A DNA stretch of 64,000 bases, from NCBI GenBank assembly GCA_018806915.1, contig JAGKQI010000078.1, positions 744,001 through 808,000 on the forward strand, read 5' to 3'. The notes below the pieces were generated by a model that was not told the origin of the DNA, searched no databases, and was given only the letters and a program-made list of their open reading frames with translations. This DNA comes from Phytophthora colocasiae (Eukaryota; Oomycota; Peronosporomycetes; Peronosporales; Peronosporaceae). Position numbers and translations under genes: made by a program. Positions 11,161 to 52,200 of this stretch are shown here, piece by piece (position 1 is the stretch's first letter; each line of letters opens with the position of its first letter).

Positions 11161-11475
11161 GAGGTAGCAGAAGATGGATGAGGCTTAGTCCCTGGTGGAC
11201 TGCAAGGACGGATGGCATGCCGCGGAGGCTCGGTGAGTGAGAGAGGCGGGGTGTCGTCTCTAGGAGCGTGGTACTATGCTGCGCATTTCATTCTTTAGTT
11301 TTTAGTTACGAATTTCCCTAGTCAAGTGAACAAGATCAAGAATCGACGTATATTGCATTTACTCAAGGACTTACTCTTCTCTTCTTTACTCTACTTCTAG
11401 ACCCCACTCAGGACCGTACTCATTTAACAGCCACAGGTACCGACCCCGACAAGGGAGGTGCGTGACACGTAGCGT

Positions 11476-11629
11476 TCATGGTATAAATTGCTCGAGCACT
11501 GGATAAAGCTCAAGCGCTTTGCTTTCTACTCCTTCTCTACTCCTTCCACGACCAAGTTGACCTCGAGGCTCTACACTTCTCCCAATAAGTGGATTCACAT
11601 ACTGTTCCTGGTTTCCTTCTCGTTTAACA
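11476..11629 (-). pseudogene. 3' part of an ORF split by element D
   Basis: On the minus strand, immediately outside the 3' LTR of element D, the reading frame runs from AVKREGNQEQYVNPLIGR to a stop at 11,476. Removing D plus one copy of the 4-bp target duplication joins this in frame to the ORF at 21,412-21,757 (ending ...VVAIQEA). The function of the joined ORF is not recognised. Confidence 0.6.
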
Positions 11630-11633
11630 GCTT

Positions 11634-12717
11634 TGTGACGAGCCCAATACGCCTGTTCGCTAGCGGATCGTAATTGCTGACAATGGTTATCTGCGTTTGT
11701 CTCGCCGGGTTCTTCGTTTGCGGGGCTAATTCTCAATCAACAACAACACACTGCTGGCTCAGTCACCTGCCTCAGAACTTCGTTCCTATTTGTATTCAAA
11801 TGTACTAGGGTAGAGCTTCCGTCCTCACGTTCGTCCGTCCGTCCGTTCAATCGTTCGTTCACTCTAGACGACTTGCTTGTATCAACAGCACTAATAACTG
11901 TCCTTGGATTCCTCACTGATGTTGTTACTGGTGCTGTCGACTCGTTCCAACCGAGTTCGTCGCCAACTTCACGCACAGGATCCGTCCAAAGTTCAGTCGT
12001 ATCAGCCTTCGCTTCGCTCGTCCGTCCAAAGTTACCCACTCGTCCTATTCCTACTACGTTCGTTCGTCCACTCTACTTTCGTTCGTTCGTTCGTTCGTTC
12101 GTTCGTTCGTTCGTTCGTTCGTTCGTTCGTTCGTTCCTTCAGTCGTTGCCTCTCGGAGTACAAATTCCCGAACTACCTTATCGTTTTCCCGTCGGTCACC
12201 GGCCTCTCAGAGCACAGATCCCGAGGTACCTTCGTTCGTTCACCTTCCTCCCAGCGCGCAATCTCCGAAGTCGTTCGTCTGTCCGCTTACTGCCAGCGTG
12301 CAGATTACCAAGTCGTTCATCCGTCAATTCAGCCGCTTGTTCCTCAGAACGCAGTTTGCGAAGTACTTCTCGCCGTCGGTGCAAATTGCGAAGTCGTTCG
12401 TTCACTTGCCGCCCAGCTCACAGATTGCAGAGTGTTTGTCTCGACCGCTTGCTCCTCAGAGCTCAAATTCCGAAGTGCCGTTCGTCCGTCCGTTCATTCA
12501 TTGGTTGTTGGCTACACGCCAGTTCCAACGTCGACTGCGATCCTCTTCGTGCAGCCATACACCACTCGCCAGATCCGCACGCGTTCACCGTTCTCGCTCA
12601 TTCGCTGGTTAGCGATCTTCTCCGTCAAATTCAACCTAGGTCCGTTATTTCAATCGTCCAGCGATCTTCTTGCATCGTCAACTTCAACGTGAGGCGTTCA
12701 CTTCTCATCCTATTACA
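11634..12717 (-). repeat. 3' LTR of element D
   Basis: 1,084 bp, beginning TGTAATAGGATGAG and ending TTGGGCTCGTCACA on the minus strand. It matches the inverted 5' LTR part (17,417-18,391, plus) and the 5' LTR start fragment (21,312-21,407, minus). It contains a (CGTT)n tract of about 57 bp at 12,080-12,136. Long ORFs across the LTR (FVRSFVRS repeats) only reflect this tetranucleotide. Confidence 0.88.
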
Positions 12718-12735
12718 CGCCTTCTCCTACTCTAG
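12718..12735 (-). other. Polypurine tract of element D
   Basis: On the minus strand AGAGTAGGAGAAGGCG directly precedes the LTR start TGTAATAGG. Position and purine content fit the plus-strand priming site of an LTR retrotransposon. Confidence 0.65.
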
Positions 12736-12817
12736 ACTCTTCCACGACTCTGGCGGCCTGATAGAACTTTTTATAGTCTCGCATAGAGACCCAGAATGTC
12801 CCGTCATCCCGTTCAGA

Positions 12818-13744
12818 TCACTGACTATTTTGTCGTTCGTCATTTTCCCGTAGAGGTTGCAACTCCACCGCAAGGACATATTGTCCGGCTGCATTTCTTC
12901 TTCGTCGTCTCCGAAGTTCCACCAGCATTCCACGTTGTTCGTTCGGTTCGTTCGGGCTCGGAATTGCTCGTTCCTTTCGTTTTGGTATTCGTCCAACCTT
13001 GACTGCATCAACTTGGGCCGTCGTTGCTCGATCAGTCGCTCCGGCCGTCGTCGTAATCGTTTCGTGCTCGAGCGATCCTTCATCAGTCAATACTTCGATG
13101 ATATCATCACCAACGTTCTGCAGCACTTGCCCAGGGTGATGATACTGCACCAAAAACGAAACGTGAGCTATTAACAGCTCTCCTCCTCCGTCCTGATCTT
13201 CTCGTCGCAGCAGTAGGTTATCGTAGCCAGCAGGTTCAATCACTCGAGCCGGTCTGATCCAAGAGTGTACAAATTTGGAAGCTTTCGGTCCTCTCGGAGG
13301 CCGAAACACCCACACCCTGTCGCCTGGTTCAAATTCTCGTTCTGTTCGTGCTTTCCGATCATAGTACTTCGCCTGTCGAGCTTGTTCTCGTTCTCGTGCT
13401 AGTTCCGCACATTCATGACTCACCTTCAACGTCTTCAGCAGCTTCTGATGATGTTCTAATAGGTCACCAGCTTCGGTCACATGTGTCCTTCGCAATAACT
13501 CGTTCGGCGTACACAATTTTCGTCCCATCATCAATTCATTAGGCGACAACGCCACTGTCGAGTGTTTTCCAGAGTTGTATGAGTAGACCGCGAAATCCAC
13601 CCAGTTGTCCCAGTCACATTGTCGTTCGTCGCTCATATAAGTTGCTACACAATCCTTCCATGTCCTGTGGAACCGTTCTACAAGTCCGATCATCTGAGGT
13701 CGATACGGTACTGAATTCGTCTGTTGAGCCTGCAATAGTCTCAC
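12818..13744 (-). pseudogene. Element D integrase, C-terminal part
   Basis: 308 residues starting within the integrase core: QQTNSVPYRPQMIGLVERF contains the Glu of the DDE triad. TWKDCVATYMSD, FAVYSYNSGKHSTVALSPNE and a GPF/GxxVWV-type module follow (FEPGDRVWVFRPPRGPKASK), as usual for gypsy integrase C-termini. The tail is basic and low complexity. A one-base frameshift near 13,741 separates it from the upstream pol ORF. Confidence 0.88.
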
Positions 13745-15969
13745 CAGTTGACTTTGCCTGTCAACTCAGGAGCTCCGTCCGTCAACAGCTCTCGGAAAGG
13801 TCCAAATTTGAGGACAAACTCCTTCATCAAGAAACTCGCAACTTTGTCCGCTTCATGAGTCTCCATCGTCGTTGCCACTGCATATCGTGTCACGTATTCC
13901 AGCGCTGCGATCACATATCTTGGTCCGTTCTCACCAACAGGTAAGGGTCCTGCTACGTCTAAGGCCCAGCGATCACCAACGTCTCCCCCTCGTAAACTTT
14001 GCAATGGAGGCACAATTTCTTTTGGTTTCGCTTTTCGGCTACCGCATTCTTGACATCCTCGTACCCAACATTTCACGTCTTTTGTTAAGTTCGGCCACCA
14101 GTATATCTGAGCAATTCTAGCTTGAGTGTGCGTCGTTCGTAAGTGTCCAGCCCAGATTGAGTCATGACATTCTTTGAACACAATCGGTCGTAACATTGCA
14201 GGCAGTATCACCCGGATACCGTTCATCGTTTCAATCACTGCCATGCCATAGTCCGTCGTCACTCTCATATCTCGGTACTCGCCGTCTTTGATCAACCTTT
14301 GGACCAGCTTACTCTCCATTTGTGCTTCACAGATTTCTTCATCAGTCAGTTGCAAGGTGTCGCCTTGTTCACGTCTCCGTCGGCGTTCTTCACGTGCTCG
14401 CTCGTATTCACTCCATCGTATACCGTTCGCATTCGTCTGTGTCACCGTCGTAATGGCATCTGGCCCTCGTATCGACGCCATGCTCGTTGTCAGCGGCATT
14501 CCTGGTTCGTCTGCTGCATTTCGTGGTACGTCTACTTCATGATCGGTGTTGATGTCTTCCGCGGCTAACGTATTCTTGGTAGGCGGCGCTCTTCGTATCT
14601 CCTTCGTCGTTCGTTCGCGAGTTGGTTGCTCCATAGACATCTCTGTCAACACCGCATCATCGTCGTACATCCTTTGCACCTCCGTCGTCTTGTCAGGGGT
14701 CCGTTTCAATGCTTCACTTCGCGACAATGGCTTCTTCGCGTCCACATTCTCCAACAGCAGCTTCTTGGCCATCATTTTCTGCCGTTTTCCAGTCTTAGCG
14801 CTTCGAATCTGCTCCGTCGTCGTCATATAGCGTCCGTCACTCATGTTTGTCGCCATGGTTACTTCCGTTAGCTTCGTCTTGTCGTCACCAGTCCTTCGTT
14901 TCATTCGTTTCCGCCGTCCTGCTGCAGCTAACGTCTTCGATACAACAGGGGCTCTGGACAACGCGTCGGCAACAACATTTGTACTACCCGGTCGGTATTC
15001 AACAGCAAAGTCATACTCTTGAAGAGTCAAAGCCCAGCGGTGCAATTTGCCCGTAAGATTCGTACTAATGATCAACCATTTCAACGCTGCGTGATCCGTC
15101 ACAACTACAAATCGTCGTCCGTACAGATAAGGTCTGAAAAGTTTGATAGCCCATACAACAGCGAGACATTCTAACTCAGTAATGCCATACTTCGCTTCAG
15201 CTTCGTTGTTAACCTTGCTTGCATAAGCCACAGGCTGCCATCCGTCACCTCCATCTTGCATCAGGCTCGCTCCCAGTCCTGTCGTAGAAGCATCCGTACT
15301 CAATCGAAACGGCAATCGAAAATCCGGATATCGCAACACCGGCTTCGTCGTCAATATTTTCTTCACTGCGAGGAACGCCTCCTCTTGCGAAGCACCCCAC
15401 TTCCATTTTACCTTTTTCCGCAACAACTTCGTCAACGGCTCCATCAAAGTACCGAATCCCGGCACGAATTTTCTGTAATAACCCGCGAGATGCATGAATC
15501 TCTTCACCTCTCCAGCATCGTTCGGCTTCGAGAAATCCCGTACTGCAGTCACCAATCGATCCAGTGGTCGTACGCCTTCCTTCGACAATTCGTGGCTTAA
15601 GTACTCCATCGCCTCAGCAGCAAACACACACTTCTTCAACTTGAGCGTCAAACCCGCTTGAGATAGTCGCTCCAACACACAAGCCAGCTCGATCACGTGT
15701 CGCTCAATTCCACCTCTCGTATAGATCACGATATCGTCAAGGTACACCAGACAAGTTGACCAAGTAAGACCTCTCAGTACTCCGTTCATCATTCGTTGAA
15801 ACGTGGATGGTGCGTTCATCAGTCCAAAAGGCTTCCTTAGGAACTGATACAATCCTTGTTTCGTCATGAAAGCCGTCTTGACTTTATCTCGTAGTGCCAT
15901 ATAAATCTGCCAGTTGCCCGCCTTCAAATCAAGTGTCGAGAATAACAGTGCTCCACCAAGCGCTTCCAA
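13741..15969 (-). pseudogene. Element D reverse transcriptase, RNase H and integrase N-terminal part
   Basis: 742 residues. RT motifs are [27 protein letters not shown] and the catalytic CLVYLDDIVIYT, at normal gypsy spacing. RNase H follows (LSTDASTTGLGASL, ELECLAVVWAIKLFRPYLYG, VVTDHAALKWL, NVVADALSR). After a ~190-residue Lys/Thr-rich linker comes an HHCC-type zinc region (WAGHLRTTHTQARI, CWVRGCQEC) and the first two integrase Asp (DRWALDVAGPLP, LLTDGAPE). The N-terminal RT part lies in another frame (15,924-16,274) and the C-terminal integrase in a third. Confidence 0.92.
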
Positions 15970-16274
15970 TGTTTCGTCAATCGTGGCAAAGGGTAGACAT
16001 CTTTTCGTGTAATTTTGTTCAGCGCTCGGTAATCAACGCAGAATCTGACTTCTTCATCCTTCTTACGTACTAACACGACAGGAAAACCCCAAGCACCGTT
16101 TCCTTCTTCGATCACTCCGGCCGCCAACATCTTTTTCACATTTTCCTCGATGATCGCGTCGTCAGCGTGAGCTTGTCGTCTTCTCTTCATCATAATGGGT
16201 GCAGCATCGCCAGTATCAATGTGATGTTCCACTGGTAGTGCCGTCGGTGGCGGACAATCACCCGTAGTTTCCAC
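15924..16274 (-). pseudogene. Element D reverse transcriptase, N-terminal part
   Basis: 116 residues holding [40 protein letters not shown] and [20 protein letters not shown], the classical start of gypsy RT. It is in frame with the protease ORF but separated from it by one TAA stop (16,293-16,295). A one-base loss near 15,990 shifts it from the rest of RT. Confidence 0.88.
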
Positions 16275-16292
16275 CAGATTCCGATAGGCTCG

Positions 16293-17252
16293 TTATAACT
16301 TCAAAACCAACTCCTGACTGTCACCAATTCTCACGTGATCTTCGTCTTCAAGGGGCTTTTGACTGCTTATTCCATCTAGCCAGTTCTTTACTCTGTCACG
16401 CTGTAACTCACCGTTGATCTCGAGGATCTCCATATCATCGTCAATCGGTATCCAAACTCCGAGCTCTTTCTTCGAGGGTAACTTCGTTCTTCCCCGTGCT
16501 GCATTAATCATTGGCACCACTGCTTTTCCGTTCTCGGCACGCGTCACCGTCGAAGCCAACATCACGGCGCCTGCGCATCGCGTTGGTACAAACACGCCAA
16601 GTTCCCCGTCCGGAGCAGCAACAGATACTTCAACAGGTGTCACCGCATTCCCAGTCAACTGCGTACGTCTCGTCATCCAAACTGCTGCAATGCGTGCACT
16701 TGCACCGTCGCCAGATACTTCATTCGTCCGAAAAGGAATAATAAATCTCCGCTCCTTCTCTCGATATGTCAACTCGTTGCGTTCGAAATCTAGCTTAGCG
16801 CCATGTTGCTTTAGGAAGTCCACTCCCAGCAAAAACTCGTCATCACATCCGTCAACAACACAGATAGTTTCACCAAACACCGTTCGTAGATGAAAACGCC
16901 ACACGCCAACCACGTCCAGCAAAAACCCGCCGATTCCATCAACGAAGTCCACCGGTGTTTCAACGTCCAGTCGGTCTCCATGCTGCATCCATCCGGTACC
17001 TGCTACTGTATACCGCGCACAACTATCGAGCTTAACGTCTTTCCACGTACGATTCACGCGCACTTTCGCCGTCGATAAACCATCTACGGAGAGTACATAT
17101 TCTTCATCGTCATCGTTCGTCACTGTGATCGTCGTTGTTGGCTCGCGCGTCTTCTTCACCAGTTTTACAGGGTTTGTTTGCTCCTGTTCATGTCCTACGG
17201 CCGTCACAGGGATCGCCTCTCGTCCGCGTCGTCGCTCAGCCAGCCTTCGCAA
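16293..17252 (-). pseudogene. Element D retropepsin-like protease
   Basis: 319 residues. The active-site region reads VKLDSCARYTVAG; the usual DS/TGA triplet appears as DSCA, so the conserved Gly is replaced by Cys. FLLGVDFLKQHGAKLDFERN is the hallmark (I/L)LGxDFL segment of gypsy proteases. The basic N-terminus (RRLAERRRGREA) extends upstream in frame to about 17,330, where an A7 tract precedes a shifted frame. The reading frame continues into RT after a single stop. Confidence 0.78.
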
Positions 17253-17416
17253 TGCTGTGTCAGCTTCATTCCGTCGTGTTTGTGCTAACCGTTCGCGTCG
17301 ATCATCTTTGCGTTTTTTTAACTTCCCGCTGGCCCTTCAACTTTTCCTGTCGGCGCTATCGAGCTGCTCGTCGTGCGTTCCGTCATTGTAACCGTCGTTC
17401 TGCAGTCACACGTCGG

Positions 17417-18391
17417 GCTAACCAGCGAATGAGCAACGAGAACGGTGAACGCGTGCGGATCTGGCGAGTGGTGTATGGCTGCACGAAGAGGATCGCAGTC
17501 GACGTTGGAACTGGCGTGTAGCCAACAACCAATGAATGAACGGACGGACGAACGGCACTTCGGAATTTGAGCTCTGAGGAGCAAGCGGTCGAGACAAACA
17601 CTTTGCAATCTGTGAGCTGGGCGGCAAGTGAACGAACGACTTCGCAATTTGCACCGACGGCGAGAAGTACTTCGCAAACTGCGTTCTGAGGAACAAGCGG
17701 CTGAATTGACGGATGAACGACTTGGTAATCTGCACGCTGGCAGTAAGCGGACAGACGAACGACTTCGGAGATTGCGCGCTGGGAGGAAGGTGAACGAACG
17801 AAGGTACCTCGGGATCTGTGCTCTGAGAGGCCGGTGACCGACGGGAAAACGATAAGGTAGTTCGGGAATTTGTACTCCGAGAGGCAACGACTGAAGGAAC
17901 GAACGAACGAACGAACGAACGAACGAACGAACGAACGAACGAACGAAAGTAGAGTGGACGAACGAACGTAGTAGGAATAGGACGAGTGGGTAACTTTGGA
18001 CGGACGAGCGAAGTGGAGGCTGATACGACTGAATTTTGGACGGATCCTGTGCGTGAAGTTGGCGACGAACTCGGTTGGAACGAGTCGACAGCACCAGTAA
18101 CAACATCAGTGAGGAATCCAAGGACAGTTATTAGCGCTGTTGATACAAGCAAGTCGTCTAGAGTGAACGAACGATTGAACGGACGGACGGACGAACGTGA
18201 GGACGGAAGCTCTACCCTAGTACATTTGAATACAAATAGGAACGAAGTTCCGAGGCAGGTGACTGAGCCAGCAGTGTGTTGTTGTTGATTGAGAATTAGC
18301 CCCGCAAACGAAGAACCCGGCGAGACAAACGCAGATAACCATTGTCAGCAATTACGATCCGCTAGCGAACAGGCGTATTGGGTTCGTCACA
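17417..18391 (+). repeat. 5' LTR of element D, main part, inverted
   Basis: 975 bp, in plus orientation although pol is on the minus strand. It begins at GCTAACCAGCG, matching the complement of 12,613 in the 3' LTR, and ends TTCGTCACA at 18,391. The missing first ~96 bp are at 21,312-21,407 in minus orientation; about 8 bp are lost between them. Its (GAAC)n tract is about 51 bp against about 57 bp in the 3' LTR. Confidence 0.88.
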
Positions 18392-18409
18392 TGGTGGTCA
18401 TACAGGGGC
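18392..18409 (+). other. Primer-binding site of element D
   Basis: TGGTGGTCATACAGGGGC follows the LTR end (...GTCACA) without a spacer. The 3' LTR at 11,634 is followed instead by host sequence, so this is where LTR identity stops and internal sequence starts. The complement ends in CCA, as expected for a tRNA primer. Confidence 0.6.
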
Positions 18410-18450
18410 TACTAGCGAAGAAACGTGAATTGAGAAAGAAACGAAACACG

Positions 18451-20812
18451 ATGGGAACGAGAACGGCTACGGTTGGGACCACGACGAGACTGCTCGAACG
18501 ACGCGAGGCAGGAAGACCGGGCCCAAAGCCAAACTGAAGTCGAAGAGAAACATGAAGATAACGACGTTGATGATGGAACAGCGATACGAACGGGTGATGA
18601 ACGGCGGCCGAACGATGAAACGGAAGGCGTTGACATGTCGGAACGAGCAGTGGAACCTGCCAGTGATGCTGCCACGGAACTGTATGAGGATCTATCAGAC
18701 GACATGCAGGAACCGACAGAGGCAGAAATCGTCAACCTGGCGCACAATGAGAAAGCTGGGAGCTGTAGCCGCTAAAACGGGAACAGGAACGAAGGTATCA
18801 GCCAGGTTAAAGAAATTGGCGACTGACCTGCAGCAAGTAACGACTCAGCTGGCTACCCCGAGAGCAATATCAATTAGTGAAACAGTTGAACAGGTCGATG
18901 AAGCACTGGAATGAGAACGTGACGTCAATGAGACCTGCGAACGGCTGGATATCGACCTCCACCAGCAGATACCAGAGCGACGAAGCCGTGAAGAACGAGA
19001 ACCACCAGCACGACGTGTGCAGTACGATGCATCCAGAACGGCCAAAAGAGTTAACCGGCGGGGTAACGATAGCGACGTTGGCGAGGAACGATCAAGTAGT
19101 GACTCCGAGTCAAGACGGCGCCCACGTGCCGAACAGCCAGCCAGACGATACCGGAATAGCAACAATGCTGATGATACTGAAGAGCGGAGACCACGAAGAC
19201 GTGAACGAAGTGATGGAAGTCGACGTTGGGAAGAACCACGTCGTGGAGATCGTCACCACCGGGAACGACGAGATGAACGACATCCGCGACGACGTTTACA
19301 GAGAGCAGCACCAGGCGGAGATTCATCCGATGGAGCTAGCAGCTTGAATGACGATAGTTCCGGCAGTGATCGACGGGGACGGCGTGACCGAAGTAATAGC
19401 CGAAGCAGTAGTCGAAGCAGTAGTCGAAGCAGTAGCTCGGAGAGTCGAATCAGTTCCGACGGAGCCAGTGATTCGAGTGATCTGGGACGGGATAACCGTC
19501 GTCGCATCCGAGAACCCCGAAGACATGACAGACGACGTGAACGCCATGAACGAGAACGACGACATCGGGTGCAAAACATCAAAGATCTGGAACTCCCGAG
19601 TTTCACACCGACGCCGAGAGCATCAGTATTGACGTGGGTGGACAGGATCGACTTGGCGTTGAAGGGAGCCAAAGAATCGGGACGAGGTGAATGGTCAGAC
19701 CACTCCTTGTACTTTATCCTCGGTAACAAGTTGATAGAGAGCGCAGCGAGATGGTGGGTGAACATGGATAGAAGACTACATCGACGAGATCGCACCTGGA
19801 CGAAATTGAAAGTGGCATTGTTACGGACCTCGTGTGAATAAGTCTGCTGCTGAAGCTCGAGTGATTCCACAAGGAACCATATGCGGATTTTGCAGCGGGA
19901 TTTCGCGAAGCTGCGGGCAGGAATGAGGTCAGTGAACGAGTGTTTCTGGCACAGTTCTATCGACGCATTGATCGGACGGTCAGACAACTGGTCAAACAGC
20001 CACCGGTGCCTCGAACCTTGGAAGAAGCTGTGGAGAAAGCCACTGAAATTGATGATCCAATGGACTATGCGACCGGAAATCAGCTCGGGACACAGAATTA
20101 AACCCGACCACCATCAGGAGGCGACGGCCGAATGGTAGTGATTCCTGGGGTAGGCACGTTGACGTTGCCGGCGGAAAGACTCGAGGACGAGGCGAAAAGT
20201 AGCGAAATGGCAGCAGGCACGACGGATGCACTCGCCATCTGCAACAACCAACAGGGCGTGTACAACTGGCCTGCTGGAGTGTTTGAATTCCCACCGGGGC
20301 AAAAATGGAATGGAAGATTCTGGGTAGCGACTGGAAACAATGGAAAGAAGCGCGCTGACAAAAAGAAGACTAAGCAGAAATCTAAAGCAGACGTGCCATC
20401 GTCTAAGGAACGGAAGAAAACGAAACGCGTGGTTCCGGATACCAGTAGTGAAGATGAGCAGGACGAACCGAGAATGAAGCGGCCGAAGACGACGACGACC
20501 CCATCCACTGCAGCTGTGAAGAATGGCAACAGCAGACGAACCAACGCACGGGGTGACTCGAATGGCGGGGAGTCAACAAAGTACGGAAGGCAAGGACGAA
20601 CCGATAACCCGAACCGACCATGTTTTCATTGCGGACAGAATAGCCATTGGTCATCGCAGTGCCCAAACGAGCCGAAGTGCTGTGCGTGCAACCAGAGAGG
20701 ACACTTTGCGAGGGATTGCCCTAACGACATCGCTAAGAAACGTAACGACGAGTATCTGCGGAAGCGAGCTGAGGAAACGAAGGAGTCATCGGAAAACGAC
20801 AACCGGGCGTAG
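18451..20812 (+). pseudogene. Element D gag, broken in several frames, with CCHC knuckles
   Basis: The likely start is the ATG at 18,451 (MGTRTATVG). Coding-like pieces follow in changing frames: an acidic region (18,530-18,770), an Arg/Ser/Asp-rich region (19,017-19,590), a capsid-like part (LELPSFTPTPRASVLTWVDR, FILGNKLIESAARWWVNMDR) to 19,841, then after a frameshift a helical part around 19,880-20,100. The last ORF (20,132-20,812) has two knuckles, CFHCGQNSHWSSQC and CCACNQRGHFARDC. At least four frame changes show decay. It lies in the inverted block and belongs upstream of the minus-strand pol. Confidence 0.78.
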
Positions 20813-20818
20813 TAACGG

Positions 20819-21311
20819 AGGTACTCTCCGACAACGAAGTTGGCGTTACAAGACGATGGAATAGTGCAAACGATGAAGCAGTTAAGGAATGGAGGTGATA
20901 AACGTGATGAGAGCCGAGCGGCTATCTACGTAGCTACAGTACGACCCGACGAGGAAATATTGACGGATACGGTTGGAAGGACTGTCGGAAATTGAGATCG
21001 CCGGTACGAACAAGGGCAATGGTGATTCGAGTGCGACGAACGAGGATTCCAAAGACACGACGGTGACGACGAAGCCCAACGAACGAGTACAACGCGAGTA
21101 TGAATCGGTCTCGACAACTACGTTGGACGGTTCGAACGCTGGAGAAGGCGCGGACGGTGCTACGGAGTGTGGTACCGGTACGGTTGGGGTCGGATCTGGA
21201 GTAGGCGGAAGCAAATGAATTGACGAAGCTCCGGCTACCAGTGATGAAGTCCATACTGGAGAAGGCGCGATGACTGAGGGTCTAGATGGAGAAGAACGAG
21301 CCGTGAAGCGA
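20819..21311 (+). pseudogene. Element D gag-pol linker remnant
   Basis: Frames after gag contain protein-like stretches: RDESRAAIYVATVRPDEEIL near 20,905-20,960, and a Gly/Thr/Glu-rich ORF at 20,973-21,218 (SEIEIAGTNKGNGDSSATN). These probably led into protease before the inversion. The block ends near 21,311, where the 5' LTR start fragment begins in opposite orientation. Confidence 0.5.
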
Positions 21312-21407
21312 CCGTCTAATTCAATCCAGGTCCGTCATTTCAATCGTCCAGCGATCTTCTAGCATCGTCAACTTCAACGTGAGGCGTTCACTTCTCATCC
21401 TATTACA
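21312..21407 (-). repeat. First ~96 bp of the 5' LTR of element D
   Basis: On the minus strand it begins TGTAATAGGATGAG at 21,407, matching the 3' LTR start at 12,717 nearly base for base down to about 21,312. The homology then stops and inverted internal sequence begins. The target duplication GCTT lies just outside. Confidence 0.85.
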
Positions 21408-21411
21408 GCTT

Positions 21412-21757
21412 CTTGTATCGCTACAACGGCTGTTCTTGGTGTAAGAACTTCCATTTGCTCATGACGAAGTTGATTCTTGATTCTTCGACCAGTAGCAGGT
21501 CGTTTCGGTAGTTTTGTAGGTTCTGATGAAGTTGCTCGAGCTGTAGACGGTCTGGAAGGTAGAATACTTCGATGTTGACGACAATCGATAGACGTCAAGA
21601 AGGCCCATTGAGCTGTAGATGGGTAGGATAGTTCCTGACGAAGTTTACGATGAGGTGCTGAAGATCCACTGGTAGTTCCTATTCTACTCCCGTCACTGTA
21701 AGCTCTCGCTGATACGATCGTCCTCGGTGATTCAGAAGCTAATGGAGGTCCGTACAT
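21412..21757 (-). pseudogene. 5' part of the ORF interrupted by element D
   Basis: The minus-strand ORF starts MYGPPLASESPRTIVSARAY and runs to VVAIQEA, where the LTR of D begins. With D removed it continues in frame at 11,629 for about 50 residues. It is Ser/Arg/Pro-rich with no domain recognised; it could be a host gene or an older retroelement gag. From 21,760 to 22,700 no supported gene is seen. Confidence 0.5.
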
Positions 21758-22707
21758 CGTGGAAGCGTTTATTTTCTTTGAAACCTATTCTCACTATTCT
21801 TGGGTTCCCACAAACTTACAGAACTATTTAAAGAGAATGAAATGGTTTCCATCTCAAAAGAAAATTCCGATGATGAGCTGGAGAATGCAGTCTTTCGTGA
21901 AAAGCAGTCAATGACAGGTGATACACCTTCCCCGACGATTTCTCGTTTGTTGTGCTGTCTGCGGAATCGCTGTATCCGTGGAACTTGTGTGGTTATCCCG
22001 TCTTTACTCTCCTTACTGGTGTTTTTAAGTCTCCCATCCAGTACTACTACCAGTGCGAGACGAGTTTCCTTGATTTTAGCTGTTGCTCCACCGGTCATTC
22101 AAAATGAAAGATGGGGGGTAAAGACTGCTTAGAGCGTTCCCACCGGTAACGATCTTAGTTGTCAATTCGTGACCCATATCGCGGCCGTTCCGACATCCCT
22201 ACATTTTTCGACAAGCAGGAAACTCGCCAAAGCCAGGGCAAATCGGAAATAGTGAAAAATCGTAAGTTATACATTATGTACAGTACATTTATCGTTTCAA
22301 GTCAGCTTTCATACTTTCATACAACCGCGAGGAAATCGCCTCTAGAGGCCTCTGGACCGAGAAAAACGCTATTTTGTATATTCATGCATATTTGCTCCAG
22401 AGCACATGTGCACAGGAGGCGGCATATTCATTAATGAGACCGGCTTCGCGGCAGAGGGGCTACAATTAGAAGCAGTCCAGCTCCTACAAGGCATATTATT
22501 GGCTCATGCATGGTCCAATCAGAAGCTATAGTCAATGATAAGTTTTGATTGGTAAGTCCATCAACCAATAACCAATCGCCTTCTGTCCCAACGAAAGCTA
22601 TTGTCTGCCAGTTTGCCGAAACGTGGCCCACGTTCCCAGTCTTCTTTTTTCAGAGCTCACGATCAAGCCTCAGCAGACGTCGACTCCAGCCCCCCCCCCT
22701 CAACTCC

Positions 22708-22778
22708 AACACCGTAGCTCAATGGCAAGAGCGTAGAGCTTCGGCTCTGAGGTGCCTGTTCAATTCAGGCCGGTGTTA
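22708..22778 (+). tRNA. tRNA-like sequence, probably a pseudogene or SINE head
   Basis: 71 nt. The 7-bp acceptor stem (AACACCG/CGGTGTT) is perfect, the D arm is GCTC-AATGGCAA-GAGC, and the T arm is GCCTG-TTCAATT-CAGGC (perfect 5 bp). The anticodon region folds only as TAGAG-CTTCGG-CTCTG with a 6-nt loop, one base short. If the missing base is at position 38 the anticodon would read TCG (Arg). The perfect outer arms with a defective anticodon loop suggest a tRNA pseudogene or tRNA-derived short element rather than a working tRNA. Confidence 0.5.
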
Positions 22779-23007
22779 TCATTCAAGTTTGGCGCTAGGT
22801 TGTGGTGCAGCGGCCCTTGCGCTTCAGTACCGTGCATCTGCACTACTATGGCCGCGTCGTGTTCCTGCTGTGTCGTGCCTCTGGTCGCTGCTGATACAAT
22901 GAAGTGCTGCTGCAGATGAGTACTGGAAATCCTGTGTCCTGTGAGGTTTTGGCGCTGTGGTGGTGGTGCGTTTTTTTTAAATGAATTACAGATGCGATCT
23001 AACCGGT

Positions 23008-24579
23008 TTATACATGTCCTACACTGGCTAGGATGTCTTGGGTGTCCGCAGGTGCAGGATCAGCGATTCTTCCGACAGCAACTAGCGTCCTGTATGCTGC
23101 GATGTGATCGTCGAAGACGCCGCTCTTGTGAAGTGGGCGCAGAACGCGCAAGACGCTCCCAGCTCCCTTCGCATTGACGTTCCGCGACTTTAAGAAGTCA
23201 AGCACTGCTTTCTCAGCCCGACGGCCGGTGTCCAACACTTGGTCCTTGTAGTCCGGAGCGTTGGGGTCGAGCGCGAAGCCTTCAGTCAGGAAGAGCTTCA
23301 TGACGTGGCGATACTCTGACTTCTTCTGGCGATCGGCAGAGTTCCAGACACGAGGCACCCGCGTGTACCATTCAAACCAGGCACTGGACAGGTTTGTAGT
23401 CGCTTTCTTTCTGCGCTTAAGTCTTGGCTCTTGATCTAACGTGGTTTGTTCTTGTGGTTGTTCTTCGGGTGCTTGTTTTCGTTTAAATTTTAGAAACGCG
23501 GATTCGACGATAGTAAGGCGCGCAGAGAGGGCTCGGTTTGAGGCGATAAGCTCATCAACGACAGCGAGAAGATGATGATGTACTTGGCATGTGTGCGTCT
23601 TGTCCTCCTGTTCTTGTTCTTTTACAGGTTCGGGTGAAGCTTGCTCATCAAGCGCTACCGACAAGACTAGCGCGTCCGCCCCCGGGATCTCCGATGAGCT
23701 CAAGCACTCTCCTACGCGATCTACGACTCGGGCGTCCGGAGCGAGCGCTTTCAACCTCGGGTAGTAGCGGACCAGGTACGCAGTGAGGACGGTGAGGACC
23801 TTGCTTCTAACGTTAAGATTGCTTTCCTTGAGTCCTGTACAGGTGCTAAACAAGAATTGACTCAAGCATGCCAGCCGCTCTTGAGCTCTATGGTCCAGCG
23901 CTGCAGTCTCAAGAACGACAGGAGCTGCGTCGGCCTCCCACCCGCTCAGCACTCGCGCAACCTTCCGGTCCTCCCGCGGCGTGTTGTACACGTAGGCAAA
24001 GCCTTTGTTGACCTTGCTCATGTCCCACGCACCGCGGTCGAAGATCCACTGGGCAGCAAGGCGATCATCTCCGTTGGCATGTTGGGCGCCTCCGCGCCCG
24101 AAGGAGTGGGATGTCAAGTCGGTGTTGGCTCCAGCGGGCTCAGCAACGCGCTTGAGGAGGCGGTTAACGTACGCCTGAACACCGTCCTCTCCACGGGTTT
24201 TCTCCCCTGCATTCGACTTTGTTGTGCTGCTCACTTGTGCTTCTTTGCTTGTAGGATCGGGGCTTGGGCGACAGCTGGGCCCAGGAGCAGCAATCGTAGA
24301 CGAAGGTGCCATCCTTCCGACCCTGAGTAACGCTGGATCGGCTTCGAGCAAGTCCTGCAATGCCACACCGGGGACTAGCGGATCCTCACTTGCCGCCGCA
24401 AGCTCTGGGAGCTGGCTGAGCAGAGCTGGGCAGGGCGCGGTCTGCATCACGAGAGCTACTGCGAGCGAGTGGATTGGGCATGTAAGGAAGTCCTCTTTAT
24501 CAGGTACGAGCGTTAACCCTTTCGCGGTAAAAGGGCTATTTCTTCGCCATTTGAGGCATATTACAAACCAAGGTGGAGA
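23008..24579 (-). pseudogene. Crypton-type tyrosine recombinase, 5' truncated
   Basis: The frame is open from 24,579; the first Met is at 24,450, but conserved-looking sequence precedes it (KGLTLVPDKEDFLTCPIHSL), so the true start is lost. The C-terminal catalytic region is clear: LTSHSFGRGGAQHANGD, then WIFDRGAWDMSKVNKGFAYV with a candidate Tyr nucleophile. The usual HxxR reads HSFG, so the second catalytic Arg is replaced by Gly. After a Gln/Glu-rich linker comes SSAWFEWYTRVPRVWNSADR, resembling the GCR1_C-type DNA-binding module reported in Crypton proteins. It is a DNA transposon remnant and probably inactive. Confidence 0.72.
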
Positions 24580-47586: not shown

Positions 47587-48166
47587 CATTAGATAACGAA
47601 AATATTTTTGTTCGTGAATCAGCACTTGAAAGAAAAGTTTGACACCGTTCTCTGTTTCTTTCGGACCGAAATGGCGGCTGGGCTTGCGGACGTGACTTCT
47701 TGCTCGGTGTCGCTATCAATGAAGACACAACAGGCGACGGATACCACGACGAGTCGGACGAGGAGGTGTACTTGGAAGGACGCTGCTTCTGTCATTGACG
47801 GGGTTGGAGCTGCTTTGAGTTTGGAAAAGCTTCTGAACAGCTTCGGAAGCTGCTCGAGCGATACTTTCAGCATCTGAAGTGAAAGCAGCTAAACCCATCG
47901 CTCCGTTACTCCCTTCCCTTCGAGGCGTGAAGCCTGGAGTAAGCGACTGAGGCATACCCGAGGCCTCAGCTACAACAGCGTCAGCTGCTGCCATTTGAGA
48001 CTCGTGGCACTGGAATTGGAGAATGAAAACCTTCATTGGCGTAATGTAGCACCGGTTGTAGAACTTGATGATGTCTCCACGTGATTTATCGTTCTCCAAG
48101 ATGATACCGTGGGTCACACCATCACCACTGCGCGACGAAGCGAGGGGGCTGCTACCTGCTGGGTTG
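47587..48166 (-). pseudogene. Partial duplicate of the retinoblastoma gene 3' end
   Basis: 580 bp nearly identical to 49,162-50,154 (3' flank plus C-terminal coding of the Rb gene). It contains NRCYITPMKVFILQFQCHES and the Ser-rich segment, but lacks about 60 bp near 47,640 and about 330 bp near 47,728, including the terminal intron. Both joints look like simple deletions. It is adjacent to the kinase gene and in the same orientation as Rb. A non-functional copy. Confidence 0.88.
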
Positions 48167-48326
48167 GTAATGGAGTTGAATTTCACGTCATATAGCGCGA
48201 GGAGAGCACATACACTGAAGTAGTAATCTCAGGTGGGGAATCCATGGGGTTGGTTTCGTCAAGAGTGTATGTCCACTCTATGAGAAGTTTCCACGCGTTC
48301 TGCCAACACGACCAGAATGAGAAAAG

Positions 48327-49004: not shown

Positions 49005-49277
49005 GAGGACAGAAGCGTCGCTAAGTGCTTTCTATAGGCCGTAGGTCGTACATGTAGTAACTCAGTGATGATGAAGAACGTTTTCTCTTTACTGTACTCG
49101 TTTGGGAGGGTCCAAGGCCTACATTACACTGAACGGGGTTGTCCTCAACATTCACGTTGCTCATTAGATAACGATAATATTTTTGTTCGAGAATCAGCAG
49201 TCAGCACTTGAAAGAAAAGTTTGACACTATTACGCATAGTTTACAGAGTGGTGCAAGTACAATCGGGAACATCATGG

Positions 49278-52200
49278 CTACAATACCGTTCTCTGTTTCT
49301 TTCGGACCGGAGTGGCGGCTGGGCTTGCGGACGTGACTTCTTGCTCGGTGTCGCTATCAATGACAAGATCTGGAGCTCGGACACGACGTAAGTTCGCTGG
49401 TGCAGTATTGACAGCTCGATTGATCAAAGCAAGGTCCTGCAAGATAAAAAAACAGAGTATCAGACAAAGAGTACCTGTAACGAAACGCCAAATATGAGGA
49501 CTCACCCGTGCAGGACTTTCGCCAATCGCATACAAAGCGTGTGAGCGTGGTGTCAACTCCGACCGCCGATCCAAACGAACTTGCTGCAAAGGAGACATGA
49601 AGACATTAGAAGACTTGACACGCTTCGGAGACGTCTGGTTCATTGACACTGGCAGTGTCTGCACTTCTGCGGAAGTAAACAGTTGCAGTGCAGACACAAC
49701 AGGCGACGACACAAATGGCGACGAGCGGATACCACGACGAGTCGGACGTGGAGGTGTACTTGGAAGGACGCTGCTTCTGTCATTGACGGGGTTGGAGCTG
49801 CTTTGAGTCTGGAAAAGCTTCTGAACAGCTTCGGAAGCTGCTCGAGCGATACTTTCAGCATCTGAAGTGGAAGCAGCTAAACCCATCGCTCCGTTACTCC
49901 CTTCCCTTCGAGGCGTGAAGCCTGGAGTAAGCGACTGAGGCATACCCGAGGCCTCAGCTACAACAGCGTCAGCTGCTGCCATTTGAGACTCGTGGCACTG
50001 GAATTGGAGAATAAAAACCTTCATTGGCGTAATGTAGCACCGGTTGTAGAACTTGATGATGTCTCCACGTGATTTATCGTTCTCCAAGATGATATCGTGG
50101 GTCACACCATCACCACTGCGCGACGAAGCGAGGGGGCTGCTACCTGCTGGGTTGATAGCAGTGATATTCTGACGATTTAACTGTTTGTAACACGCCAGCA
50201 AGCGCTTGAAGGACATTGTAGCCGCTGCTTGAGAGACGTTCCTCCCCCGCGAAACCTTACACACCGCATAAATATTGCACAATACAATCAGGTCCAGATG
50301 CCGGTCTCTCAACAAGTACTGATGCGACGTGATGCACTCCTTCACTGCAGTCCAGATCTGATTTTGATCCGTCGAGTCCAAATTCAAAAGACTGCAGAGC
50401 TGGTAAATCCTGGAAGCTGCGCGAGATAAAACCATTCGGAAAAAGAGTCGAAGCACAGGAGCATGACCGGCTGGGGCAGTAGGAGTCACATCCGACATTC
50501 TTGAAGAAGAAGCTGAAAGGGGCGTGCCAGGAGCAGAATTGGGTAAGCGGTGGGATCCAGCCAGGAGCTGATAGAGTGCAGAGTCTGATTTCCACACGGC
50601 CGAGTCCAAAATGCGGTTCTTGACATCACCCATGTGCTTCTTCAACGCCGAAGGCAGCTTTGGCGCGTACTTGACGAAGCTTTCGCTGGTAGTCACGAAG
50701 TGGAACGCGTTCACTTGCAAATGGTCCAGCAGAAACGGGTACGAGATCGTAATTAAAGAGTGTGCCTTCAATACGACCTCAGCACTGCAAGCGAACAGCG
50801 CAGCAAGGAACACTTCATTGTTCAGTAGCTTGGAGAAATCGTTGTTGCGTAGGCGCTCACGCTCTGCCAACAGCAATGGCTCAAGTACTCGATAGAAGAG
50901 CACAATCGACAGGTTCGTTGAGCGTTTCAAGCTGTCATCCACGCCCGATAAGAAGTTCCGTGCGTTGCCATTTTCATCAGCATCCCCCTCCTGCTCATCA
51001 TCTATCACCAACGTCGCTGTAGAGCGAACTCTTGTCGCCGTTACTCGACTTGTGCCTCTAGCAGCCAGTAACAAGTCCGAGCGTTCTTGTAAAACCCTTG
51101 CAATTCGTCCCGTTGGGTCAACAGCACACTCCGAGAAGAATTGGTGAAGCTGTGGTGTCACAGGCATTAATACGGTACTGGACAGTGTTTCACGCAACCA
51201 ACTGTTCGTTTCTACTGCTGCAGAAACTGGAGTTCGCATCCCTGGAGACGGATGAGGACTCGCACCTGAGAAGAAAAACCGCGATCCACCAGGTGAATCC
51301 TGCCACTGCAATGAATGCACCAACGGTGAATTGATCCCACGACCTTGGAACGACTGGCGATGGCGTGGTGGAGTCATCATTCCCCTTGAAAGTGGAGTCG
51401 ACGGTGCACTCTCTCGTCGTCGAGCCATCATGTTGCGTCGCACAGGTGAAAGCATCCCATGCGTAGCACTGCGACCGGTACTCAACCTACCACTCGAGTC
51501 GGTGGTAGAATTGGATGGGCTGTTGCCATTATCCGTTTGAGACAACCCCAAAATTGTATGTCGAATACGCGCATCCAGGAAAAAACGCTCGTCCAACTTT
51601 CCACAACCATCCAAATAGTCCTCTTTGTACCTCTCCGAGAGTCTCTGAACGTTCGCTTCAAGTACCCCGTCCGCAAAAAGCGTCATACTCAACACCGTGT
51701 GCTCCCCAGCTTCCTTCTGCATGACATCTTCATCTCTCAGTTGCTGCAGTACTAGTCCCAAATGATCCGAAGCTCGAGAAACATCGGTAACATCCACTTT
51801 CGGTGCCGTGCAAAGAGCTTCCAGTATCTGAGCACTAGTCTTCACTCCTCCGGCAGATTTCACTGGCGATGCTTTACCATCTCCTAATGCTCCCATTGCA
51901 CTCAACGCAGCAGCAACTTCAGCTTCTACCGATGCTTGAGACGCCTGCGCATTGGTGATAACCAAATGCAGAGTAGCCAGTAACAAATTGTACAGTTGAC
52001 CCAGTCCAGAATAATGGTCTCCCAGCCTTCTTTTAGCCAGTAAGAAGAGCAACCAGCCTCCTTCAAAGAGTTTCCTGTGTCTTGATCTTGTCTTCAGCTG
52101 CTGTTGATCCACCACACTCTCCGGTTCCGGATCCATTGGAGTCAAACTCAAATTTCGTTTCTCAATTAATTTCTTGGGCGTCAGAGCTTCCCAGAGCACT

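Follow-up and report, generated by a model that had tools for sequence, protein, structure and literature searches.

A reversed inner segment in a Ty3/Gypsy-type LTR retrotransposon of Phytophthora colocasiae, and a candidate central polypurine tract array in its relatives

Positions 11634-21407 of the window, the whole 64 kb stretch of DNA analysed here (contig C8, 744001-808000, + strand, in a 92.5 Mb assembly of 105 contigs), hold one Ty3/Gypsy-type LTR retrotransposon with a reversed inner segment, as demonstrated by self-comparison and by comparison with relatives. A single target duplication encloses the element, and its breakpoints can be placed against relatives that were never flipped. 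We consider it probable that the inserted element suffered two breaks, that the fragment between them was end-joined in inverted orientation, and that gene conversion later acted between the LTR arms. The initial annotation, made from the sequence alone, had described an inversion inside one LTR retrotransposon, and this description stands: it accounts for the two LTR halves, for the lone target duplication, for the existence of unflipped relatives and for the breakpoint bookkeeping. The flip is an accident in a decayed element, not a mechanism, and a purine-rich motif array in the second open reading frame (ORF2) is the more promising lead.

Structure, insertion site and breakpoints

Self-comparison of the window aligned 11634-12613 with 18391-17417 in inverted orientation at 98% identity, and 12622-12717 with 21312-21407 in direct orientation at 95% (Table 1). 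Together with homology to relatives on contigs C27 and C20, this bears out the initial assignment of pol and the 3' LTR to the minus strand and of most of the 5' LTR, the putative primer-binding site and gag to the plus strand. The ~96 bp reported as missing from the 5' LTR do lie at 21312-21407 (-), with 5/96 differences from the 3' LTR. Both LTRs of the element have TG...CA ends, the target duplication is short, and a Pfam search of the pol piece 13741-16032 (-) found RVT_1, RT_RNaseH, Integrase_H2C2 and rve in that order, the rve match being weak and below its cut-off; the order of RT, RNase H and integrase places the element in the Ty3/Gypsy type. Directly after the LTR, the sequence TGGTGG... 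is found in the window, in C27 and in a further relative on C17. Most of the named organisms among the 120 protein matches listed were Phytophthora species, with 38-76% identity across some or all of the query, and a few were Pythium, a frog and a fish; on these matches the host is probably a Phytophthora or close oomycete. Decay of the coding pieces is evident from 10 stops over 12 alignments with the C17 query, plus several frame changes. In C27 and C17 (L069, L075), there is a 40-nt overlap, in the -1 frame, between the stop-to-stop gag frame and ORF2, an arrangement that would suit a programmed frameshift.

Table 1 Features of the flipped element in window coordinates
Feature	Position	Strand	Basis
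Left target-site duplication GCTT	11630-11633	.	single GCTT in 22/22 paralogous empty sites
3' LTR, 1084 bp, TG...CA ends	11634-12717	-	self-comparison
3' polypurine tract region, ending GGAGAAGGCG directly at the LTR	12718-12737	-	GGAGAAGGCGTGTAAYAGG at 39 places in the assembly
Unflipped part: remaining ORF2, RT-RNaseH-integrase and downstream ORF pieces, decayed	12718-17415	-	collinear with C27 and C20; stops and frame changes
One-base filler at the 17416/17417 junction	17416	.	fits neither the LTR nor the pol side
Inverted segment, 3895 bp	17417-21311	+	self-comparison, unflipped relatives
5' LTR from ~nt 105 to its end, 975 bp, inside the inverted segment	17417-18391	+	match to 3' LTR
Putative primer-binding-site region, starting TGGTGG	18392-18415	+	nearly identical in C27 and C17
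gag remnants with stops and frame changes	18539-20809	+	CCHC zinc knuckle in 20102-20812
Start of ORF2, severed at the breakpoint	20762-21311	+	matches to C17 and C27 ORF2
Candidate central PPT array (21141-21150; 21198-21207, one mismatch; 21258-21267)	21141-21267	+	in frame in ORF2
First 96 nt of 5' LTR, original orientation	21312-21407	-	match to 3' LTR
Right target-site duplication GCTT	21408-21411	.	same 22/22 empty sites

The element sits in a host repeat (11468-11633 and 21412-22100) of which many copies, at 79-97% identity, lie on C8 at ~378-728 kb, some of them spaced 1.975 kb apart; none of the matches listed fell on another contig. In 22/22 paralogous copies examined, the left flank up to 11633 is contiguous with 21412, and each of these empty sites carries GCTT once. 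The GCTT flanks, already noted in the initial annotation, are therefore a true target duplication made by a single insertion. Two nested or adjacent elements were considered and rejected: there is no second LTR set or duplication, and the gag, pol and LTR content amounts to a single set. A search of the assembly for an uninverted allele, using 2 kb of the right flank, matched only the window itself at full length. Two further features of the window were recorded. A 1.2 kb stretch (22174-23411) is repeated on C10, C67 and C49 at 93-95% identity and contains a tRNA-like gene (22708-22778) to which ARAGORN assigned no amino acid; outside the flipped element, 47587-48169 and 49162-50157 are direct repeats, in three pieces, at 86-97% identity.

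At the LTR break, 8 bp (12614-12621 of the 3' LTR) are missing between the two 5' LTR parts, whose breakpoints fall at nt 96/105; base 21312 fits either side, so that the loss amounts to 8-9 bp. At the other break, the equivalents of 21311 and 17415 are adjacent, with nothing between them, both in L040 on C20 (positions 1502 and 1501) and in L007 on C27 (positions 1500 and 1501), which means that no base was lost there and that 17416 was added. Flipping 17417-21311 rebuilds the element as first proposed, with the deficit of about 8 bp now refined to 8-9 bp lost and one base added. The breakpoint originally put in the 5' LTR is likewise correct; the one put between gag and pol has moved. In C27 the gag ORF ends at 154357 and the break equivalent is 154930, and this homology locates the break ~570 bp beyond the gag ORF end, within ORF2 and upstream of RT.

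The relatives are contiguous across both breakpoints, as a simple inversion predicts: the ORF2 break in L040 and L007, and the LTR break in the window's own 3' LTR and in the nine relative LTRs shown. The pieces of the window element line up with C27 150750-160725 as a single flip predicts; the LTRs of this relative differ at 2/1082 positions and its own 4-bp duplication, CCTT, is present on both sides. The closest relatives are 81% identical with the gag query and 93% with the pol query, and BLAST e-values make a chance origin of the matches irrelevant. When the junctions themselves were searched for in the assembly, only the window spanned 17416/17417 among the 18 matches to a 200-base query, and only the window spanned 21311/21312 beyond the ambiguous base among the 40 matches to a 300-base query, for which 40 of 47 candidates were scored. 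Two sequence motifs at the breaks were discarded. The inverted microhomology TCGCT/AGCGA is 5 bp long and is equalled by 30% of random 30 x 30 pairs, and GGAGAAG at the LTR break (LTR nt 95-101), which resembles the polypurine tract (PPT) core, is not kept in the nine relatives shown.

A candidate central PPT array in ORF2

The 10-mer GGAGAAGGCG occurs three times in the 64 kb window against 0.14 expected; one occurrence is the 3' PPT, and the other two flank a one-mismatch copy a short way upstream of the ORF2 break. The same array, in the form T-GGAGAAGGC-G, is located near the ORF2 start in L069, L071, L075, L077 and L080-L094 as well as in the window. For the 3' PPT, the pattern GGAGAAGGCGTGTAAYAGG was found at 39 places in the assembly versus none for a reversed-pattern control. 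Among 24 element stretches (20 fetched loci plus the window, C27, C20 and C17), 20 have the triplet at spacings of 54-57 and 58-63 bp. A spaced two-copy pattern gave 42 matches in the assembly versus none in the control; being one base too narrow for a spacing of 54, it missed C32. Four stretches stood outside the codon counts: L095 and L096 with one copy each, T-preceded and beside the basic region, and L078 and L079 with no copy at one mismatch or fewer. In the latter two, the stretch fetched missed the array, which is located elsewhere in both elements.

The motif copies keep the ORF2 reading frame and in most cases encode GEG, and their codons are more fixed than the neighbours'. Among 43 conserved four-fold-degenerate columns in eight diverged representatives, a single codon was used in 6/8 of those in or touching the motif versus 3/35 elsewhere (Fisher 0.0003), the columns having been picked after the motif was seen. 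In ten representatives, the second Gly codon was GGC at 29/30 motif sites, a count that includes one probably mispicked site, versus 18/112 other in-frame Gly codons, and the base preceding the motif was T at 30/30; restricting such counts to elements with recognisable copies slightly favours the motif. With the same caveat about post hoc columns, the array thus repeats the 3' PPT core internally and is constrained at the nucleotide level. A coding repeat as the sole cause does not suffice: the peptide GEG is conserved, yet its codons are fixed beyond those around them. RNA structure as the reason for motif conservation gained no support, since RNAalifold on 11 sequences gave seven pairs and no two-sided change.

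Collectively, these patterns of conservation suggest that the array may be a candidate central PPT, a second start point for DNA copying. According to the excerpted text of a review, a central PPT has not been identified in Ty3, and in foamy viruses an excerpt of PMC7828637 describes four purine-rich elements, one of them reported as a second start. If functional, the array would be the first such signal in the Ty3/Gypsy superfamily known to us from a limited literature search. Elsewhere in the assembly, C100:3128617-3128678 carries two PPT-core copies with a linker unlike the others listed and no pol match nearby, and perhaps represents a distant family with the same array.

Origin of the reversed segment

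The two parts of the 5' LTR differ from the 3' LTR to unequal degrees. The 96-bp end piece has 5/96 differences, whereas the inverted arm has seven substitutions across 972 aligned bases as well as 11 indel columns (Fisher 0.0025, a post hoc contrast that rests on five differences). In our reading of the relatives, the 3' LTR and the end piece account for two each of the five changes, with one ambiguous; being divided between both sides, they show that the end piece is not one badly mutated copy. An insertion only 0.7% old should carry ~1-2 stops by our own estimate, and 10 are observed; as an argument for age the stop count is soft, because the element could already have been defective when it inserted. 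Taken together, the divergence contrast and the many stops most simply suggest an old insertion, with homogenisation of the inverted arms following the flip. The conversion would end at the flip junction, where homology ends, and if so the flip is older than the conversion. Homogenisation of this kind, if real, would mean that dating by LTR divergence understates age (0.7% versus 5%, for one LTR pair).

Gag and pol matches lying within 15 kb of one another formed 25 pairs (drawn from 40 gag matches, three small extras of 43 being omitted, and 41 pol matches), of which 23 were strand-concordant and two, the window and a locus on C4, discordant; the search hits are lower bounds, and only flips that separate gag from pol markers are detectable. 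Counted from the array instead, 22 of 24 loci had a pol match within 12 kb and one, C4, was discordant; this count used 24 of the 41 pol matches, and the window falls outside it because its middle copy is mismatched. In C4, the segment corresponding to C17 107212-109905 is reversed; at the break 107211/107212 (C17 coordinates) both bases are kept, one extra base is present at the far junction, and ~2.4 kb is missing beyond it. Because the locus is composite, its 3' part being 87.5% like C17 and the remainder 97% or more, it is a supporting and not a clean second case, and a C17-like 5' LTR was not found in the stretch fetched. Within C4:703500-718500 (L073/L074), the reversed pol segment of 2.7 kb and the 2.4 kb deletion are accompanied by a tandem array of ~803-bp units at 714444-716364 that is unmatched in the C17 stretches, and parts of the region are 97-99% and 87% identical to C17.

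Our preferred reading, which we hold to be probable, begins with an ordinary Ty3/Gypsy-type element that would have inserted at GCTT. One double-strand break would then have fallen in its 5' LTR (~nt 96-104) and a second in the N-terminal part of ORF2, freeing a fragment of 3.9 kb that was presumably end-joined in reverse, with nothing lost and one base added at the ORF2 break and 8-9 bp lost at the LTR break. Gene conversion between the inverted LTR arms may have followed, sparing the 96-bp end piece. The lossless reuse of both ends of the ORF2 break and the one-base filler favour end joining of a cut double strand, a mechanism that we infer from the anatomy of the junctions; adjacency at one break and a one-base filler recur in C4, as expected if both cut ends are reused. 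The breaks, as read from a single assembly of one haplotype and isolate, most likely followed insertion.

Breakage of the unintegrated cDNA is a sub-case, and the evidence does not separate it from breakage after insertion. Here, a plus-strand discontinuity at a central PPT just before the ORF2 break would be the weak point; host end joining would have flipped the fragment, and the product would then have integrated by its intact LTR ends. Both LTR ends are intact and were used, as integration requires, and the last of the three PPT-core copies, a motif under synonymous constraint, is found 44 bp upstream of the ORF2 break; according to excerpts of PMC6588551 and PMC11014653, HIV-1 pipelines also count internally inverted proviruses as one class of defective ones. 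The proximity is suggestive only: by our own estimate, ~2-5% of random breaks would land no more than ~100 bp downstream of a copy, which leaves the association weak, and in C4 the break comes ~740 bp beyond the position of the array (C17 coordinates), against a fragile site. We consider this sub-case unlikely, and even more so the broader proposal that a conserved triple central PPT in ORF2 creates a break-prone plus-strand gap or flap and that internal flips are scars of pre-integration breakage, which we regard as distinctly doubtful.

The inverted LTR arms raise a different set of possibilities, since an assembler could be misled by 975-bp arms at 98% identity, and such arms could also turn pol round in vivo. 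An isomer arising through these arms, or a history of circle capture, is possible: a one-LTR circle opened at the ORF2 site and captured in a solo LTR would give the order pol-LTR-gag, after which a crossover between 11634-12613 and 17417-18391, or an assembly switch, would interconvert the arrangements. An end piece derived from an older solo LTR would account for the 5/96 divergence. This route needs two or three events instead of one, and arms from different copies should be ~5% apart, yet they differ by 0.7%, so that conversion would still be required; we give it little probability. There is a slim chance that the flip is an assembly error and the unflipped element the real one. The locus is rich in repeats, but inverted matches between the break sites reach no more than 5 bp, one base was added and 8-9 bp lost, and with relatives only 81% (gag) and 93% (pol) identical a mis-join would lack an obvious template.

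Retroviral DNA is known to become rearranged when reverse transcriptase switches templates. As the origin of this inversion, template switching is very improbable, for the polymerase would have had to resume at the exact next base (21311 to 17415) and to do so again in C4 (107211/107212), and the microhomology at the breaks is not significant. Autointegration, in which an element's own LTR end attacks an internal site, yields deletion or inversion circles according to an excerpt of PMC2644782. It is scarcely credible here: neither breakpoint lies at an LTR end (nt 96/105 and ORF2), a 4-bp duplication is absent at both junctions, and insertion into the chromosomal target made use of both LTR ends. 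The initial annotation had allowed that the flip arose at insertion, by one of these two routes, or later; exact adjacency and the lack of LTR-end junctions count against both routes and favour cutting and rejoining of double-stranded DNA.

The cut and inverted rejoining that we favour leaves a single scar in a dead element. The case is nevertheless clean, with one duplication, 22 empty sites and relatives that bring the breakpoints to base level. It exemplifies a cut-and-rejoin rearrangement, followed probably by mutual homogenisation of the inverted LTR arms.

Comparison with known systems

Inversions at the 5' end of LINE-1 elements are produced by twin priming, in target-primed elements without LTRs. 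They resemble the present case in that one flank of the reversed piece is nearly adjacent in sequence; twin priming is inapplicable to the window element, which was inserted by integrase with both LTR ends.

A nearer likeness is found in HIV-1, whose internal inversions are classified and counted among defective proviruses, as described in excerpts of PMC6588551 and PMC11014653: there, as in the window, an LTR-flanked element has its inner segment reversed. The window differs in that one break is inside the 5' LTR, that the element is an oomycete-type Ty3/Gypsy element, and that the breakpoints are resolved to the base against relatives. The inversion circles of autointegration, in the excerpt of PMC2644782, likewise contain reversed segments; they arise when reactive LTR ends attack inside the DNA and their products are circles, and neither feature is present in the window. 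In titles and abstract openings of the literature, we found no report of a comparable internal inversion in an LTR retrotransposon or of a central PPT in Phytophthora. For the array, the counterparts are the central PPTs of HIV and Ty1 and PPT A-D of foamy virus, which in the excerpts of PMC5371799 and PMC7828637 are internal purine-rich copies of the plus-strand primer, as is the array in the window. What sets the window apart from HIV, Ty1 and foamy virus is a candidate array of three in-frame copies with the same core, near the ORF2 start of a Ty3/Gypsy-type element.
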